Below the pieces are notes generated by a model. It did not search any database, was not told the DNA's origin, and saw only the letters and a list, made by a program, of their open reading frames with translations. From the NCBI RefSeq assembly GCF_028368935.1, contig NZ_JAQNDK010000004.1, positions 310,001 through 374,000 of the forward strand: 64,000 nt of DNA. Reading direction: 5' to 3'. Every line of letters starts with the position of its first letter. Within the stretch, counting starts at the first letter, position 1. The translations under genes were made by a program, and so were the position numbers. Below, in pieces: positions 54,830 to 61,077 of the stretch. This stretch comes from Sorangium aterium. Its GTDB lineage: Bacteria; Myxococcota_A; Polyangia; Polyangiales; Polyangiaceae.

Positions 54830-57800
54830 CTAGTTCGCAGCCGCCGGCCGTTCGGCCGGAGAGTAGCGGAGCACCATCACGGTGACGTCATCACGAAGCC
54901 GCTGCCCTGCCATGGGGCCCACGAGGCCCTTCACGATGGTGCTCGGCGACAACCCTTGCGCCGCGAGCGCGTGGAACCGCTCTGCCAGCCCCTGGGTCTC
55001 CAGCATTCCGCCTGCGGGGGTGACAGACTCCGTGAGCCCATCGGTGTACAGCAGCATCGTGTCTCCGGCGCCTATCTCTATCACGTCGTCCCGGAGCAGC
55101 GCCGTGATGTCGTCCTCGATCCCGATCCACATCCCGCTGGTCTCGACGAGCTCCACCGTGTTGGAGAGCGCCCTGTGGATCAAGATGTCGAGGTGGAGGC
55201 CTGCGTAGCGGACCTTCCCGCGGCCGAGCTCCAGCGCGACGATCGTCATGTACTGATCGGGGCTCACGCGGAGCAGGTTCTCCCGGACCGCGCGGTTCGC
55301 CCGGCTCAGCACGACTGCAGGGGTGAGAGGCTCGCCGTCGCGCGGCGACGTCGTCAGGATGGTCCGTACGGCGGTCTGGACCATCATCATCGTCAGGCCG
55401 GCGGTGACCCCATGGCCGGATACATCGCCGATGAGGACCCAGCTGCTCCCGCCCGTCTGGACCACGTCGTAGTAGTCGCCGCCGACGCTCTCGGCCGGCG
55501 TCATCAGGGCGGCCATGTCGTAGTCCTTCAGACGATTCTGCTGCGGCAGGAGCACCGTCTGTATCTTGCGCGCGAGATCCATCTCGCTCCACAGCTCCGC
55601 GACCAGGCGTCTGAGCTCGGCGGTGCGCTCGGCGACGAGCGCTTCGAGGTTCTCGTTCGCCCGCCGGAGCTCCTGCGATGCGGCCTCCAGCCGCCCGTAG
55701 AGCATCGCGTTCTCGAGGGACACGGCGGCTTGCGTCGCGAGGAATTGCAAGAGCCCGCACCGCGCAGGGCTGAACGCCTCCGCGGTGATGCGGTTCTCCA
55801 GGTACAGGACGCCGGTGACCTTTCCGCCCTGGAGCATCGGAGCGCACATCACCGACTTGGGTCGAGCCTGCGTGAAGTACCGGTCAGAGGCGAAGCGCAT
55901 GTCACGGTGCGCGTCCGTGAGGACGGTCAGCTCGCCCGTGCGCGCCACGTAGCGCACGAGCGACTCCGGGACCTCCGAGCCGCCCCGCAGCGCACGGGCG
56001 TCGAGCTTTATCGTATCGGGATCGATGGTCATGCTCGCCTCCAGGGTGAGCACCCCGGCGCGATCGAGGATCAAGCACCCCCGCTGGGCTCCGGCGTTCT
56101 CGAGCAGCGTCCGCATCAGCCGCTCGAGCAGCCGATCGATGACGAGCTCCGTGGAGATCGCCTCGGTCGCGCGGATGGCCGCCGTGAGGTCGAGGCTCTC
56201 GCCTGGACGAAGCGTGCTGGAGGTCTGGCCGGTCGTCTGGCTTGTCGTCCTTGGCAGGCTCGCTGCCGTTTCGTCTGCTGGATTGAGGGGGGATGCGCGC
56301 GCCGCGCTGCTCCGGAGCACGTGAGCGTATTTCGACTTCAGCTCCTCGACCTTGCACGTCCCACCCCAGCGTTGGTACACGTAGATCGCTTCGGCCAGGT
56401 AGGCGCCCGCTACCTTGCTCCTGCGCTCGTCCAGGTGAAATCGGCCAGCCAGCTCGTTGCCAATGGCCTCGGCGTGCGCGAAGCCGTGCTCCTGGGCGAG
56501 GGCTATCGCGCGATCGTACAGATCCAGCGCGCCTTCGGTGCGCCGCTCGATCCGCGAGATCTCCGCCTGCGCCAGCGCGGCGCGGTGCGCGAAGTTGGCG
56601 GGCGAGGACAGCGCCCAGGCTTCGAGCGTGGCAGCGTCGGCGCGCAGGCGATCCAGGAGTCCGGCGCGCTCTTCCGGAGCCGCGGTGCGGGTCAGCTCGG
56701 CCAGGATCAGCGCCCGATAAAAGACGTGCTCGGCGTGATAGAAGAAGCCAGGGACCAGCTTGCAGCTGTCGCTGGTGGCCAGGGCATCCCGGAAGCGGCC
56801 AGCGAGATACTGGGCGGTCGTCTTCGCGACCCCGTAAATCGCCAGCGTCGGCAGCGGCGCAGAGGCCATGAAGGCGCTCTCGTCGAAATCCGCGCTCTCC
56901 AGGGTTGCGGGGTGTCGAGTCTGGCCAGTCAGCGCCCGGATGGCCTGTTGGGCGACCTTGCAGATGCCCTGGTTGACGACGTCACCCGTCCTGTCCGCGA
57001 GGTCGCGGGCGGTCGAGAGGCTGTCCTCCAGGTCGTGCAAGCTCTCGCCGGCATACATGCGATAGTATAGGATGAACGCAGCGCAGTAAGACGCGTAGAT
57101 CTGGTCGCCCATCTCGAGGCTGATCCTCAGCCCTGACCGCAACACCTCCAGGCTGTGCGATATGTGTTGACGCCAGTGGGCGATGAAGACCCCGAAGAGG
57201 AAATGAACCTGACCCTTGCTGGCCGGACTGCCGCCGCGGGTCGCTAGCTCCAGGCCCAGCCGGCCGAAGCGAAACGCGTGCTCCCGGCTGCCCGTGATGG
57301 CGAGGTGGACGATCGCGTACTGCGCATAGAAGAAGCCCGCGAGCGGCGCCGTGCCCCGACGGAGCAGCTGGACTCCCTTGAGCACGAGCAGGAAATGAAG
57401 CTCTGGAATGGCCTGGAACGCTGCCGGAATGCTGGTGGCCAGGGTGTGGAGCACCGCGAGCTCGCGGGCGTCGCTCATCACCGACACCGTCTCCAGAGAC
57501 TCGATCTCGGACTCCGCTATCGCAGATTGATACGCTCCGAACTCGGCGCCGATCGCCGCGCCGAGAGCCGCCTTGTCTTCTAGAGGAGGCAACTCCAGAT
57601 CCAGGAGCCTCAGCGCGTCGATGCCCTTCGCGCACGCGACGTCGAGCCTGCCCGTGTTGGTGAGCAGGAGCACCTCGAGGTTGCGCCCCATGACCCGATC
57701 CACCACCGACCGCGCGTTCCGCTCCACGACATGGAGCAGCCCGAACGCGGAGTCGAGGTTCCCGGTCAGGTACTCGCACTCCGCCATGGTCAGGTGAGCG

Positions 57801-60190
57801 GCGCAGACGACCTCGTACTCTTCAATCCACCCCGCCTCTCCGAGCACGTCGAGCGCCGCCCTCAGGTAGTGCGCCGCCGCGTCGGGCGCCGCGCGAGCGC
57901 GCGCCTTGCGGCCGGCGTTCAAATTCAAGCGCGCGAGCCCGCGCCGCTCGGCCGGCTCGACGATCAGGCGCGCGCCGCGGTTCAAGTGATCCACGATCGC
58001 GAACAGCTCACGATCGCCCGGATCTGCGCCGCCGCGCTCCCGCAGCAGCCGACCGACGCGCAGGTGGATGGCGTCCCGCTCCTCCGGGCCGAACAGCGAG
58101 TAGGCCGCCTGCTGGACGCGATCGTGCGAGAAGCGGAACGCGGCGTCGAGCGCGCCGTCGACCCTCCCGGTCGCGTCGTGATGAGCCTCGGCCCTGTAGC
58201 GGTATTTGCCGTCCAGCGAGGCGATGAACCCTTGGCGCAGCGCCTCCCAGAGGTGGTCCGCCACGTCGCTGTGAGAGCGCTGAGACACGACGGCCAGCGT
58301 GGCCATGTCGAAGTTATGCCCCACGCACGCGGCGAAGCGCAGCACGTCCTGGCTCGACTGCGGCAATCTCCGCAGCTCGGACACCATGAAATCGATCACG
58401 TTGTCCGTCGCCAGCCGTTCCCACACCCGCCCCGTGTCCCACCTCCAGGCGAGGTCCGCGTGGTCGAAGCGCAGCAGGCCGTCTCGGTGCAGCGCGGTCA
58501 AGAACTGCGCGAGGAAGAAGGGGTTTCCGCGGGTCTTCTCGAACAAGGCAGCGCTGAGCCCGCTCACCGCCTCGAAGCCGCACCCGAGCGTGTCGCTGAG
58601 GAGGTGCGCGATGTGCGGCGGGCCGAGCGGGCCGAGCGTGATCTCACGCCTCCGGACGCCGGCCTGGCGCAGCTCCTGGAGCAACAGAGACAGCGGGTGC
58701 GCGGCGTCGATCTCGAGCTCCCGGTAAGCTCCGATCACGAGCACGTGGCGCGCGCCGGCGGCCGTCAGCACGTGCTGCAAGAGGCGGGTCGAGCTGGCGT
58801 CCGCCCACTGCAGGTCGTCCAGGAAGAGCACCAGCGGGTGCTCTTCAGCCGCCAGCGCACCTAGAAAGCTCAAGAAGACATGTTCGAAGCGGCGCTGCGA
58901 CTCGGTCGGCCCCAGCGCTGGCACGGGGGGGTGCTCGCCGACGACGTGCTTCAGCTCGGGGATCAGATCGGTGAGGAGACCCGCGTTCGGGCCGACCGCC
59001 TCGAGGATTTCACGCCGCCGCTGCTCGAGCACGCCCGGGGGCTCCGCGAGCACGGACCGGACGAGAGCACGGCAGGCGTGGGCGATCGGGCCGTAGGGGA
59101 CGCTCCGCGCCAGGGAGTCGAACTTTCCTGCGCCGAAGTACGCCCGGCCGAGGATGTGCTGGTGCAGCTCCTCGACGAGCGCGGATTTCCCGACGCCCGC
59201 CTGTCCGGACAGGAGGACGAGCTCGCTCCTGCCCTGCTTGGCGCGGCCGAAGCCCTCCAAAAGCGCATCGAGGTCGCGCTCCCGGCCATAGAGCTTCTCG
59301 GGGATCGAGAGCTCATCGGATCTGTCGCGCTGGCCCAGACCGAAGACCTCCGCCGCGCCAGCCTGCTTCACCTGATCCAGAATGCGCTGCAGATCGTGCT
59401 GCAATCCAGCTGCGGTCTGGTAGCGCTGCTCCACGGTCTTGCTGAGCAGCTTGAGGATCACGTCCGACAGGACCGGCGGCAGGTCCGGCCTGGATGCCAC
59501 GGGCGCCCGGGGGCTGCGAGCGATGTGGCTGTGCACCAGCTCCAGCGGATCGCTGGCGTCGAAGGGCAGCGCACCGGTGAAGAGCTCGTACAGGGTGACC
59601 CCGAGCGAATACAGATCGGCTCGAAAGTCCACGCTCCGGTTCATCCGCCCCGTCTGCTCGGGCGCGATGTATGCCAGCGTGCCTTCCAGCTGCGTGACCC
59701 CCGAGAGCGCGTCGACCTTCTGGGAGAGGCGCGTCGCGATCCCGAAGTCGACGAGCACGAGCGAGCTCGGGCCGTCCGTGACGAAGAAGTGATGGGGCTT
59801 GATGTCCTTGTGAATGACGTGCCTGCGGTGGACCGCCGCGAGCGTTCGCGCCATGGCCAGCGCCAGCTCGAGCGAGCGCGGCAGATCTAGGCGGCCCGAT
59901 CGAATCAGCTTGTCGACAGACGCGTCGCCCGCGTCCTCCATGACCAGGGCGAGGCCGTGCCCGTGCCGCTCCAGCCCGATGGCCTTGACGACCTCGGGCG
60001 TGTCGAGCCACGTCAACACGTCATATTCATGGCGGAGGCGCGCCAGCTCGAGCGCTGTCGGCCGCTCGCTCCTGAGCAGCTTGACCAGCACCGATGCCCC
60101 GTCGATCGTGCGGTAGCCGCGGTAAACCTCGGAGCTCTGGGTCTCGCGCACCTTCGCGTTCAGGGTGTACCGGTCGGACAAGGTGCTCAT
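54830..60190 (-). CDS. Giant Ser/Thr kinase - AAA ATPase - GAF - SpoIIE phosphatase
   Basis: 1786 residues. Order: kinase-like domain (about 5-270), AAA/STAND ATPase (Walker A SGQAGVGKSALVEE near 330, Walker B VLFLDDLQWADASS), long helical TPR-like region (about 640-1300), GAF domain (about 1340-1490), coiled coil (about 1500-1545) and a PP2C/SpoIIE phosphatase (about 1550-1780; SVGGDYYDVV, LIGDVSGHGVTAG, LLYTDGLTES, DDVTVMVLRY). It belongs to the kinase/ATPase/GAF/SpoIIE trifunctional family. The kinase glycine loop is replaced by ETQSSEVYRG, as is usual there, but the catalytic loop reads HKDIKPHHF, with His where the metal-binding Asn should be. DFG is intact. It is third gene of a minus-strand operon with STAS-like and HATPase genes whose phosphorylation the phosphatase should reverse. 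Confidence 0.92.
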   Translation of the reverse strand: MSTLSDRYTLNAKVRETQSSEVYRGYRTIDGASVLVKLLRSERPTALELARLRHEYDVLTWLDTPEVVKAIGLERHGHGLALVMEDAGDASVDKLIRSGRLDLPRSLELALAMARTLAAVHRRHVIHKDIKPHHFFVTDGPSSLVLVDFGIATRLSQKVDALSGVTQLEGTLAYIAPEQTGRMNRSVDFRADLYSLGVTLYELFTGALPFDASDPLELVHSHIARSPRAPVASRPDLPPVLSDVILKLLSKTVEQRYQTAAGLQHDLQRILDQVKQAGAAEVFGLGQRDRSDELSIPEKLYGRERDLDALLEGFGRAKQGRSELVLLSGQAGVGKSALVEELHQHILGRAYFGAGKFDSLARSVPYGPIAHACRALVRSVLAEPPGVLEQRRREILEAVGPNAGLLTDLIPELKHVVGEHPPVPALGPTESQRRFEHVFLSFLGALAAEEHPLVLFLDDLQWADASSTRLLQHVLTAAGARHVLVIGAYRELEIDAAHPLSLLLQELRQAGVRRREITLGPLGPPHIAHLLSDTLGCGFEAVSGLSAALFEKTRGNPFFLAQFLTALHRDGLLRFDHADLAWRWDTGRVWERLATDNVIDFMVSELRRLPQSSQDVLRFAACVGHNFDMATLAVVSQRSHSDVADHLWEALRQGFIASLDGKYRYRAEAHHDATGRVDGALDAAFRFSHDRVQQAAYSLFGPEERDAIHLRVGRLLRERGGADPGDRELFAIVDHLNRGARLIVEPAERRGLARLNLNAGRKARARAAPDAAAHYLRAALDVLGEAGWIEEYEVVCAAHLTMAECEYLTGNLDSAFGLLHVVERNARSVVDRVMGRNLEVLLLTNTGRLDVACAKGIDALRLLDLELPPLEDKAALGAAIGAEFGAYQSAIAESEIESLETVSVMSDARELAVLHTLATSIPAAFQAIPELHFLLVLKGVQLLRRGTAPLAGFFYAQYAIVHLAITGSREHAFRFGRLGLELATRGGSPASKGQVHFLFGVFIAHWRQHISHSLEVLRSGLRISLEMGDQIYASYCAAFILYYRMYAGESLHDLEDSLSTARDLADRTGDVVNQGICKVAQQAIRALTGQTRHPATLESADFDESAFMASAPLPTLAIYGVAKTTAQYLAGRFRDALATSDSCKLVPGFFYHAEHVFYRALILAELTRTAAPEERAGLLDRLRADAATLEAWALSSPANFAHRAALAQAEISRIERRTEGALDLYDRAIALAQEHGFAHAEAIGNELAGRFHLDERRSKVAGAYLAEAIYVYQRWGGTCKVEELKSKYAHVLRSSAARASPLNPADETAASLPRTTSQTTGQTSSTLRPGESLDLTAAIRATEAISTELVIDRLLERLMRTLLENAGAQRGCLILDRAGVLTLEASMTIDPDTIKLDARALRGGSEVPESLVRYVARTGELTVLTDAHRDMRFASDRYFTQARPKSVMCAPMLQGGKVTGVLYLENRITAEAFSPARCGLLQFLATQAAVSLENAMLYGRLEAASQELRRANENLEALVAERTAELRRLVAELWSEMDLARKIQTVLLPQQNRLKDYDMAALMTPAESVGGDYYDVVQTGGSSWVLIGDVSGHGVTAGLTMMMVQTAVRTILTTSPRDGEPLTPAVVLSRANRAVRENLLRVSPDQYMTIVALELGRGKVRYAGLHLDILIHRALSNTVELVETSGMWIGIEDDITALLRDDVIEIGAGDTMLLYTDGLTESVTPAGGMLETQGLAERFHALAAQGLSPSTIVKGLVGPMAGQRLRDDVTVMVLRYSPAERPAAAN

Positions 60191-60260
60191 GGTGGATTCA
60201 TGGGGATCGGTCTCGTTCCAGGAGCTGGGCTGCGCGCGCTGATGGTCTGGTCACCCCAGA

Positions 60261-60614
60261 TCATTGCACCTTTGTCTTCTTCAGCGTGCGCGCCAGCGCC
60301 GACATGCAGTTGCGGTGCGCTCGCTGCCAGTCGTTGTCACGGAAGACGACGACCACGCCGAGGCTGGTCTGATCCAGCAGTTTTATCAGATCCACCAGGG
60401 GCTTCACCGTGGCCGAGTTCATGTACTCGAGCCTGGTCAGATCCACCGTGACGACCGTGTTCTTGGTCTTCCCGGTCCAGTCCTCGAAGAGAGGATTGAG
60501 GAACATGGCGGGGCTGCGGATGTCGCTGACGCCCGACCACTCGATTCGCGACGAGTCCGCGGCCACCGAGATGCGTACTTTCAGCCCGTCGCGCTCAAAT
60601 GTCGACTCGGTCAT
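60261..60614 (-). CDS. STAS-like antagonist, slr1659-type regulator
   Basis: 117 residues. A beta strand (ISVAADSSRIEWSGV), an anti-sigma-antagonist-like core with VVTVDLTRLEYMNSATVKPLVDLIKLL and VVVVFRDNDWQRAHRN give the slr1659-superfamily profile. MNSATVKP has a Ser at the position phosphorylated in SpoIIAA-like proteins. Its start overlaps the end of the upstream HATPase gene by 20 bp, so the two are translationally coupled. It is 70 bp upstream of the giant phosphatase gene. Expected role: substrate of the HATPase kinase, dephosphorylated by the SpoIIE domain, with an unknown downstream target. Confidence 0.85.
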   Translation of the reverse strand: MTESTFERDGLKVRISVAADSSRIEWSGVSDIRSPAMFLNPLFEDWTGKTKNTVVTVDLTRLEYMNSATVKPLVDLIKLLDQTSLGVVVVFRDNDWQRAHRNCMSALARTLKKTKVQ

Positions 60615-61077
60615 GGATTCTCCTGGTGGCTGTCACGGTGACCGTCTCGTCTGCGTACGTCGCGTCGAGCGCAAAGCCGCCTTCCATCGCGATCCTGTAG
60701 ATGCCTACGTTGGCGCCGTCGCGCGGGCTGGCGAGCAGCTCGTGTAGCCGCTCGATGTAGAGCTCCGTCTTGTCCGGGGCGCTGCGCAGGGACTCTATCC
60801 GGCAGAGCAGTCGATTGACCGAGCCGTGATCGGTGCAGCCGTTGGTCGTGACGAGTTCGATCCTGTCCTCGGTCATGCTGAGCGTGAAGCGAATGGCGCG
60901 CGCTGCGGGGACTTCCTCGCCGTACTTGATGGCGTTCTCCAGCAGCTCGCAGGCCACCATCTCTGCCGCGTCCACGAGCGCGCTCGGGTACTGCGCGAGG
61001 GCTTTGCGTACCGAGGCTCGGGTCGCGCGTAGATTGCTCCATACAGGGCGGAGCGAGGTGCTCAGCAGTGGTTGCAT
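60595..61077 (-). CDS. HATPase anti-sigma-type kinase, slr1658-like
   Basis: 160 residues. ACELLENAIKYGEEVP (about 42-57) is the N-box of GHKL ATPases as found in RsbW/SpoIIAB-like kinases; RIELVTTNGCTDHG and IYRIAMEGGFALDATY complete the domain. It fits the slr1658 superfamily, whose members occur next to slr1659-type STAS proteins. Together with the SpoIIE phosphatase in the giant protein, this is a full partner-switch set: kinase, antagonist, phosphatase. It is the first gene of the operon. No sigma factor is adjacent, so the final target is not encoded here. Confidence 0.85.
   Translation of the reverse strand: MQPLLSTSLRPVWSNLRATRASVRKALAQYPSALVDAAEMVACELLENAIKYGEEVPAARAIRFTLSMTEDRIELVTTNGCTDHGSVNRLLCRIESLRSAPDKTELYIERLHELLASPRDGANVGIYRIAMEGGFALDATYADETVTVTATRRIHDRVDI

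Follow-up and report, generated by a model that had tools for sequence, protein, structure and literature searches.

Here we describe an operon at positions 54830–61077, on the minus strand, of a 64,000-nucleotide stretch of the Sorangium aterium genome (hereafter the window). In transcription order it encodes a 160-residue HATPase protein, a 117-residue STAS protein and a giant protein of 1786 residues, which likely constitute a kinase, a phospho-acceptor and a sensor-bearing phosphatase in one transcription unit. Predicted folds, conserved motifs and gene neighbourhoods incline us, with somewhat more confidence than doubt, to a partner-switching operon that would work like SiaABC of Pseudomonas aeruginosa on a target encoded elsewhere. 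The operon is well explained as a new arrangement of known parts, namely a partner switch of the SiaABC type in which the sensor has been exchanged.

The HATPase and STAS genes share a 20-bp overlap, and a 70-bp gap separates the STAS gene from that of the giant. Rechecking lengths, spacing and coordinates bore out the three open reading frames and the overlap reported in an earlier note on this DNA, and the analysis supports its proposal that a complete partner-switching set lies in one likely operon. The same note named the small proteins slr1658-like and slr1659-like. Models of these Synechocystis superfamilies are indeed the best NCBIfam matches of both proteins, but the scores stay below the cut-offs: the HATPase reaches 41.7 and 40.4 bits with the slr1658 models (cut-offs 200 and 100), and the STAS protein 22.1 bits with slr1659 (cut-off 100), 24.3 with Pfam SiaC (24.5) and 20.0 with Pfam STAS (22.6). 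The two proteins are thus relatives, not members, of the curated slr1658/slr1659, SiaC and STAS families.

Structure prediction points to SiaABC for both proteins. The AlphaFold2 model of the STAS protein (predicted local distance difference test, pLDDT, 92.8) is matched best by SiaC structures over 109–113 residues (6k4f, Z 13.6; 6kkp, 13.4; 7e6g_C, 12.9; 6kko_D, 12.3), followed by an MlaFB chain (Z 10.7) and the best RsbV (Z 10.5). The HATPase model (pLDDT 90.3) has SiaB as its best solved match (6kko_B, Z 16.0, root mean square deviation 3.3 over 143 residues), ahead of UsfX (Z 14.4) and SpoIIAB (Z 13.8). Ser67 of the STAS protein is the first residue of helix 2 (residues 67–83), and the surrounding LEYMNSATVK aligns with the peptide LLYLNTSSIK around the SiaC acceptor (PMC7647112), the two sharing the motif Y-x-N-[ST]. 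In SiaC, residues Y65, N67, T68, S69 and I71 contact SiaD, and phosphorylation of T68 blocks binding (PMC8457831); the aligned window residues are Y64, N66, S67, A68 and V70. Conservation of the acceptor serine, which the earlier note had proposed as a check, is near complete: Asn66-Ser67 is kept in 41 of 42 aligned STAS rows, the 42nd being a decayed copy whose Ser codon has become a stop, and E44 and N48 of the HATPase are kept in 37/37 rows. Four STAS rows, from loci L058 and L059, were picked by position, one of them (L058c) also having a BLAST match. As the rows take in distant relatives, the conservation of Ser67, E44 and N48 is a feature of the superfamily.

Homology with SiaABC (PMC7647112, PMC8457831) and RsbU (PMC12143880) suggests how such a switch would operate. 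The HATPase would bind the STAS protein and phosphorylate Ser67, holding it off its target. Inputs would reach the giant at its kinase-like head, its AAA/TPR-like region and its GAF domain and be integrated there, setting the dimer state of a helical linker and so turning the PPM phosphatase on, as proposed for RsbU; the phosphatase would then strip the phosphate from Ser67. In the weakest step of the scheme, the unphosphorylated STAS protein would bind a target encoded elsewhere through the Tyr-x-Asn-Ser face of helix 2. By analogy with SiaC and SiaD, this target would more likely be a coiled-coil signalling enzyme (a nucleotide or diguanylate cyclase) than a sigma factor. The published output of SiaABC is the diguanylate cyclase SiaD (PMC8457831), and SiaABCD has been presented as partner switching merged with c-di-GMP signalling (PMC9239204).

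The triad recurs in other genomes. A HATPase search of the genome that holds the window and 96 related ones (97 in all), with flanks taken and genes called by a codon-usage caller, yielded three further intact giants adjoining a HATPase–STAS pair: L039 and L045, both in genome G050, with 48.7% and 50.5% identity to the window giant over about 1780 residues, and L044 in genome G087, which belongs to another family than the window (37%). At L041 (G031) a contig edge interrupts the apparent start of the kinase domain. A scan of named genomes gave at least 22 loci, among them L070, where the giant faces the pair. Full-length relatives of the giant number eight in Myxococcota (L039, L044, L045, L070 and L110–L113) and two in a metagenome-assembled genome (MAG) of a spirochaete (L150 and L151). 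A survey of phosphatase ends in 377 genomes, which scored 6 candidates per genome, found six giants in frames of more than 1700 residues (one in the window, one in G026, two each in G400 and G087), of which four stand beside a pair (3/5 when the window is left aside). Overall, 7/9 intact myxobacterial giants have an adjacent pair; 4/6 is the fairer figure because several giants were found via the pair. HATPase precedes STAS in all seven intact triads (window, L039, L044, L045, L070, L111 and L112), so this part of the gene order, for which the earlier note had suggested a survey, is conserved, but the place of the giant is not: it follows the pair in the window and L045, precedes it in L039, L044, L111 and L112, and faces it in L070. 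Since the arrangement recurs in other genera and in another family with its motifs kept, it is more than chance; the triad is real and conserved.

Among six genomes of the same genus, the operon is intact in one, decayed in one (G003) and without a close HATPase in four. The decayed copy (L038 10001–11869, plus strand) retains a nearly full-length HATPase gene, the STAS gene is stopped at the Ser67 codon, and the giant is reduced to 195 residues around the GAF domain, with 82% identity. Other pairs adjoin shorter SpoIIE proteins (L040, L043, L046, L068 and L114, for example), and at L042, L072, L074–L076 and L078 there is no SpoIIE gene in the stretch seen. As a separate observation, a HATPase of the window's family forms the C-terminal part of a 631-residue protein at L052 (8561–10456, plus strand, G042 C93), which has no Pfam match.

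The earlier note stated that no sigma factor is present, and a local hidden Markov model (HMM) of sigma-70 region 2, built from 20 sigma domains of the window's own genome, finds none in the window or the next 10 kb. The note contrasted this absence with classical Rsb/SpoII systems, in which a sigma factor is adjacent. SiaABC, however, controls a diguanylate cyclase, and since SiaC and SiaB are the nearest folds of the two small proteins, the lack of a sigma factor is what one would expect here. The same model, run on 33 stretches, gives clear matches (E <1e-8) in three, of which L068 and L078 have theirs more than 4 kb from the pair and L113 has one about 11 kb from a giant that lacks a pair; this last match also appears in the genome-wide list and serves as a positive control. 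No clear match lies within 4 kb of any HATPase–STAS pair in these stretches; co-occurrence with sigma factors was a check that the note had named. An all-against-all comparison of 22 related stretches revealed no linked output gene either: among the matches listed, only HATPase, STAS, SpoIIE and kinase were held in common, with a few weak extra pairs at unrelated positions. The only neighbourhood hint of an output comes from L112 (4702–12272, plus strand, G400 C6), where a SpoIIE giant of the same type is followed by members of the slr1658 (164.7 bits) and slr1659 (111.7 bits) superfamilies and then, 13 bp after the latter, by a class III cyclase, all of these genes sharing a strand and lying close together. 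The target of the window's switch is probably not a sigma factor.

Several observations weigh against a SiaABC-like operon. The proteins miss the cut-offs of the SiaB model (15.8 of 85 bits) and the SiaC model (12.5 of 150), as they narrowly do that of Pfam SiaC, and PDB profile searches list neither SiaC nor SiaB at E up to 10. Instead, the STAS alignment profile matches TM1442 (1.3e-6) and other anti-sigma antagonists (13 in total) and the HATPase profile matches Rv1364c (0.019) and SpoIIAB (0.28; 22 in total); designed ankyrin repeats, which topped the HATPase search, we took as spurious. The predicted folds are closest to SiaC and SiaB, whereas sequence profiles favour generic anti-sigma antagonists, and a fold shared with SiaB and SiaC does not prove function. 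The acceptor is Ser in the window, Thr in SiaC. No cyclase is found among the operon's nearest genes (glycosyltransferases, an epimerase and a surface protein), and the cyclase at L112 is a single case that uses a different HATPase–STAS family. Two giants, L110 (G026, on a 10.5-kb contig) and L113 (G087:C184), lack an adjoining pair, and the spirochaete giants L150 and L151 are not beside that MAG's pair. Finally, the sigma scan excluded matches weaker than its threshold (L041, E 8e-4, about 3.3 kb from the pair; L043, 0.004; L151, 0.04) and several stretches extend less than 4 kb on one or both sides of the pair; the window's own genome has at least 109 region-2 matches (150 of 185 candidates scored), which leaves ample room for a sigma target that is not linked.

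Part of this evidence would suit a classical anti-sigma switch acting in trans, in which a sigma factor encoded elsewhere stays bound to the HATPase until the giant dephosphorylates the STAS protein. The UsfX and SpoIIAB fold matches of the HATPase, the profile neighbours of the STAS protein, its Ser acceptor and the abundance of sigma factors in the genome all fit such a switch. Against it stand the solved structures that match both small proteins best, SiaB and SiaC, the lack of any sigma match in the window or of a clear one within 4 kb of related pairs, and the lack of a conserved extra gene among the matches listed for the 22 stretches. We consider an anti-sigma switch unlikely, though it deserves serious weight.

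The SiaABC-like operon that we favour differs from its model chiefly in the sensor. Pfam assigns the giant a Pkinase domain (E 2.7e-33), AAA_16 (E 1.4e-38), GAF (E 1.1e-17) and, as the output in place of HisKA, for which Pfam has no match in the giant, SpoIIE (E 4.4e-32). The domain order given by the earlier note is confirmed for these four domains. Its TPR-like region stands on paralogues only: no Pfam TPR model matches the window giant, and the otherwise unassigned stretch is named TPR-like because TPR_CHK1 (PF25503) matches 8 of 44 tails of related giants, in the equivalent region in the cases read singly, so that the label is supported only indirectly. Among phosphatase models, that of SiaA scores best at the end of the giant (E 3.3e-15, residues 1504–1775), with 55.7 bits against a cut-off of 700 that is not reached. 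Compared with the PDB, this end matches four sequences, namely 3eq2, 3es2, Rv1364c and the 'putative serine phosphatase' 6k4e, which we take to be SiaA. Of these, 3eq2 is RssB (PMC12143880). In all nine aligned giants the Walker motifs are present and the phosphatase motifs GD[VA]SGHG, [TS]DG and DD, with their metal-binding Asp residues, are kept. Nowhere is the giant better conserved than in the linker that leads to the phosphatase, where the window giant has 56–67% identity to the eight others.

The kinase head has fared differently. In the window it keeps the catalytic Asp and DFG, but its loop reads HKDIKPHH, with His in place of the usual Asn, and so departs from the full active-kinase signature HxDxKxxN. 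The same Asn-to-His change occurs in five of the nine giants, the nearest ones (window, L039, L045, L070 and L110), which belong to the window's family, L070 being titled Polyangiaceae; in L039 the catalytic Asp and DFG are missing as well. Four giants (L044, L111, L112 and L113) keep the signature. The head thus appears eroded in the five nearest giants, with phosphatase motifs intact in all nine. The earlier note had input passing through a kinase-like domain; a Pkinase domain is present, but, given the changed catalytic loop of the giants closest to the window's, passage through it may not mean phosphotransfer. These data bear on whether the head could be a second, opposing Ser/Thr kinase for the STAS protein or the HATPase, in which case the giant would be a bifunctional kinase/phosphatase. 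The strong Pkinase match, the Asp and DFG of the window head and the full signature in four relatives would allow it; the altered loop of the five nearest giants, the losses in L039, the phosphatase motifs kept throughout and the HATPase kinase that the operon already contains make it very improbable.

The giant's input chassis (Pkinase, AAA_16, TPR-like region and GAF, some 1500 residues) is not peculiar to this operon. Searching the window's own genome with giant residues 1–963 (E ≤ 1e-60; best 150 of 429 candidates scored) returned at least 45 chassis matches, the window included, and the window giant is the only SpoIIE-ended one among the 45 scored. That genome has 23 SpoIIE matches, of which only the window's lies in a frame of more than 1500 residues. 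Most chassis matches appear to end in histidine kinases: the 44 other tails carry 32 HATPase_c, 32 HisKA, 8 STAS and no SpoIIE domains, and local HMM labels divide them into 31 histidine kinase, 8 STAS and 5 other. Two of the eight STAS tails are one sequence at two contig ends, the tails of L178 and L193 were read incompletely, and that of L172 has no Pfam match. The giant sensor fusion stressed by the earlier note therefore exists, but its head is not special, as other proteins with this chassis have a histidine kinase, an RsbR-type STAS domain or a class III cyclase as their tail. L199 (1325–3820, minus strand, G400 C85) is a chassis giant of the last kind. Elsewhere in the window's own genome, eight chassis giants lie nearly in tandem in frames of about 2000 residues or more (C1:2103191–2160820), and L156 (C1:3379) and L196 (C3:1897622), located at two contig ends, do not differ in chassis or tail and may reflect an overlap in the assembly.

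The best-scoring chassis paralogue among the 150 scored (L152 6229–11364, plus strand, C1:1736246) has an RsbR-type STAS tail; one STAS tail, compared with solved structures, proved to be RsbR-type (E 3.5e-29). Such paralogues, together with giants that lack an adjacent pair, could mean that the giant mainly serves other switches (RsbR-type giants or HATPase–STAS–SpoIIE arrays) and that its operon partners are one of several substrates. The operon-like arrangement here and in six other intact triads, and the breakage of both STAS gene and giant in the decayed same-genus copy, make this a quite improbable account. L152 sits about 5 kb from three tandem HATPase–STAS–SpoIIE sets (L058 3436–13900, minus strand, C1:1717000–1736000; SpoIIE proteins of 822–829 residues), each with a 20-bp HATPase/STAS overlap as in the window.

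Phylogeny places the SpoIIE giants among STAS-ended and, at wider sampling, some histidine-kinase-ended chassis. In a 33-row chassis tree, whose 16 rows labelled histidine kinase are 15 histidine kinases (10 tails read singly, 5 labelled via domain counts only) and one class III cyclase (L131), a single branch (support 100/99) unites all 9 myxobacterial SpoIIE rows with all 6 STAS-output rows, to the exclusion of the rest. This suggested that one chassis branch serves partner switching alone, but a quick 53-row tree with 20 more chassis from the window's own genome did not bear it out: there the smallest starred branch (99) holds 9 SpoIIE, 7 STAS and 5 histidine-kinase rows, two STAS-output rows fall elsewhere, and a 14-row group of SpoIIE and STAS alone (support 88) leaves out the two G087 giants. 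Outputs are nevertheless clustered in the tree: they change 13 times, where shuffles average 22.9 changes and none of 200 was as low. A single clade of all 11 SpoIIE giants is rejected (approximately unbiased test, p-AU 0.00017), and a clade of just the nine myxobacterial giants is not (p-AU 0.089); because the 11-giant clade is rejected, the chassis probably acquired its phosphatase end on at least two occasions, or else lost it. A broader picture, which we offer only as a doubtful generalization, is that myxobacteria maintain one large family of kinase/ATPase/TPR/GAF heads that can stand in for one another, and that close relatives among these heads have repeatedly been plugged into opposite ends of the switch, the resetting phosphatase and the RsbR-type STAS protein, in circuits that output a second messenger and not a sigma factor.

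The operon shares with SiaABC the joint encoding of a PP2C/SpoIIE phosphatase, a HATPase kinase and a STAS acceptor, and the absence of a linked sigma factor. Unlike SiaABC, it has no adjacent gene for the diguanylate cyclase SiaD on either side, and no GGDEF-like pattern occurs within the window; a lone KLGGDEL match, at L061, falls inside a kinase-like frame. The Rsb/SpoII switches and the RsbRST stressosome have the same HATPase/STAS/PPM logic, extending to a related chassis giant with an RsbR-type end; the fold matches to them are weaker, and the window operon has no linked sigma factor. Dual and trifunctional kinases have the input chassis of the window giant and end in HisKA/HATPase where it ends in a phosphatase; a histidine-kinase paralogue of the window's own genome has 33–47% identity to it by segment. 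Parts of this picture had already been seen in the Sorangium phosphatome paper of 2010, which counts 13 SpoIIE-like phosphatases and describes fusions to sensors as well as kinases joined to STAS domains (PMC2887360). The fusions that its available text names for Sorangium cellulosum, a member of the same bacterial group, involve PBD, HAMP, FHA and GAF sensors, and the kinase-AAA-TPR-GAF chassis is not among them. A SpoIIE-like phosphatase domain has been mentioned as part of a Pseudomonas kinase (PMC1262709), and disruption of Slr1658 reduced recovery from iron limitation (PMC7555055). In the accessible portion of the open-licence literature we found no description of a kinase/AAA/GAF/SpoIIE architecture.

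Dozens of giant kinase-ATPase sensors are present in this genome. The one with a SpoIIE end is encoded next to the protein on which it probably acts, so that what its head detects could be followed simply, by the loss of a single phosphate from a small protein. It has been proposed that histidine kinases, PPM phosphatases and cyclases can exchange sensor domains by way of a helical linker common to all three (PMC12143880), and the operon would put this proposal to the test on very large heads.

Features of the operon, with positions in the window
Feature	Positions	Strand	Details
HATPase-type serine kinase of the switch (predicted)	60595..61077	-	160 aa; SiaB-like fold, slr1658-related
STAS phospho-acceptor (predicted)	60261..60614	-	117 aa; SiaC-like fold
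Ser67 codon, predicted phosphorylation site	60414..60416	-	start of helix 67-83; aligns with SiaC T68
Giant sensor phosphatase	54830..60190	-	1786 aa
Ser/Thr kinase-like head, residues 17-266	59393..60142	-	Pfam Pkinase; loop HKDIKPHH
AAA_16 ATPase domain, residues 299-486	58733..59296	-	Pfam; Walker A and B motifs
TPR-like region, residues about 561-1320	56231..58510	-	TPR_CHK1 matches in paralogue tails
GAF domain, residues 1352-1492	55715..56137	-	Pfam
GAF-to-phosphatase linker, residues about 1500-1575	55466..55693	-	giant alignment
SpoIIE/PPM phosphatase, residues 1580-1776	54863..55453	-	Pfam; GDVSGHG, TDG and DD motifs

To the left of the operon lie two glycosyltransferase genes and an epimerase gene, and to the right a gene for a DUF4215/P-domain surface protein; none suggests a function for it. 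No empty insertion site could be read in G001 or G004, because the left and right flanking genes lie megabases apart in both. A promoter scan of the operon gave no sigma-70-like site, a result that says little in such a genome, and one terminator-like and other consensus matches, all near shuffle level. Elsewhere in the genome, at C4:1367858–1374498 (L059, L230 and L245), an slr1658 superfamily gene (G000:C4:1372103, 152.6 bits), separate from the window operon, is accompanied by two SpoIIE genes and another HATPase gene.

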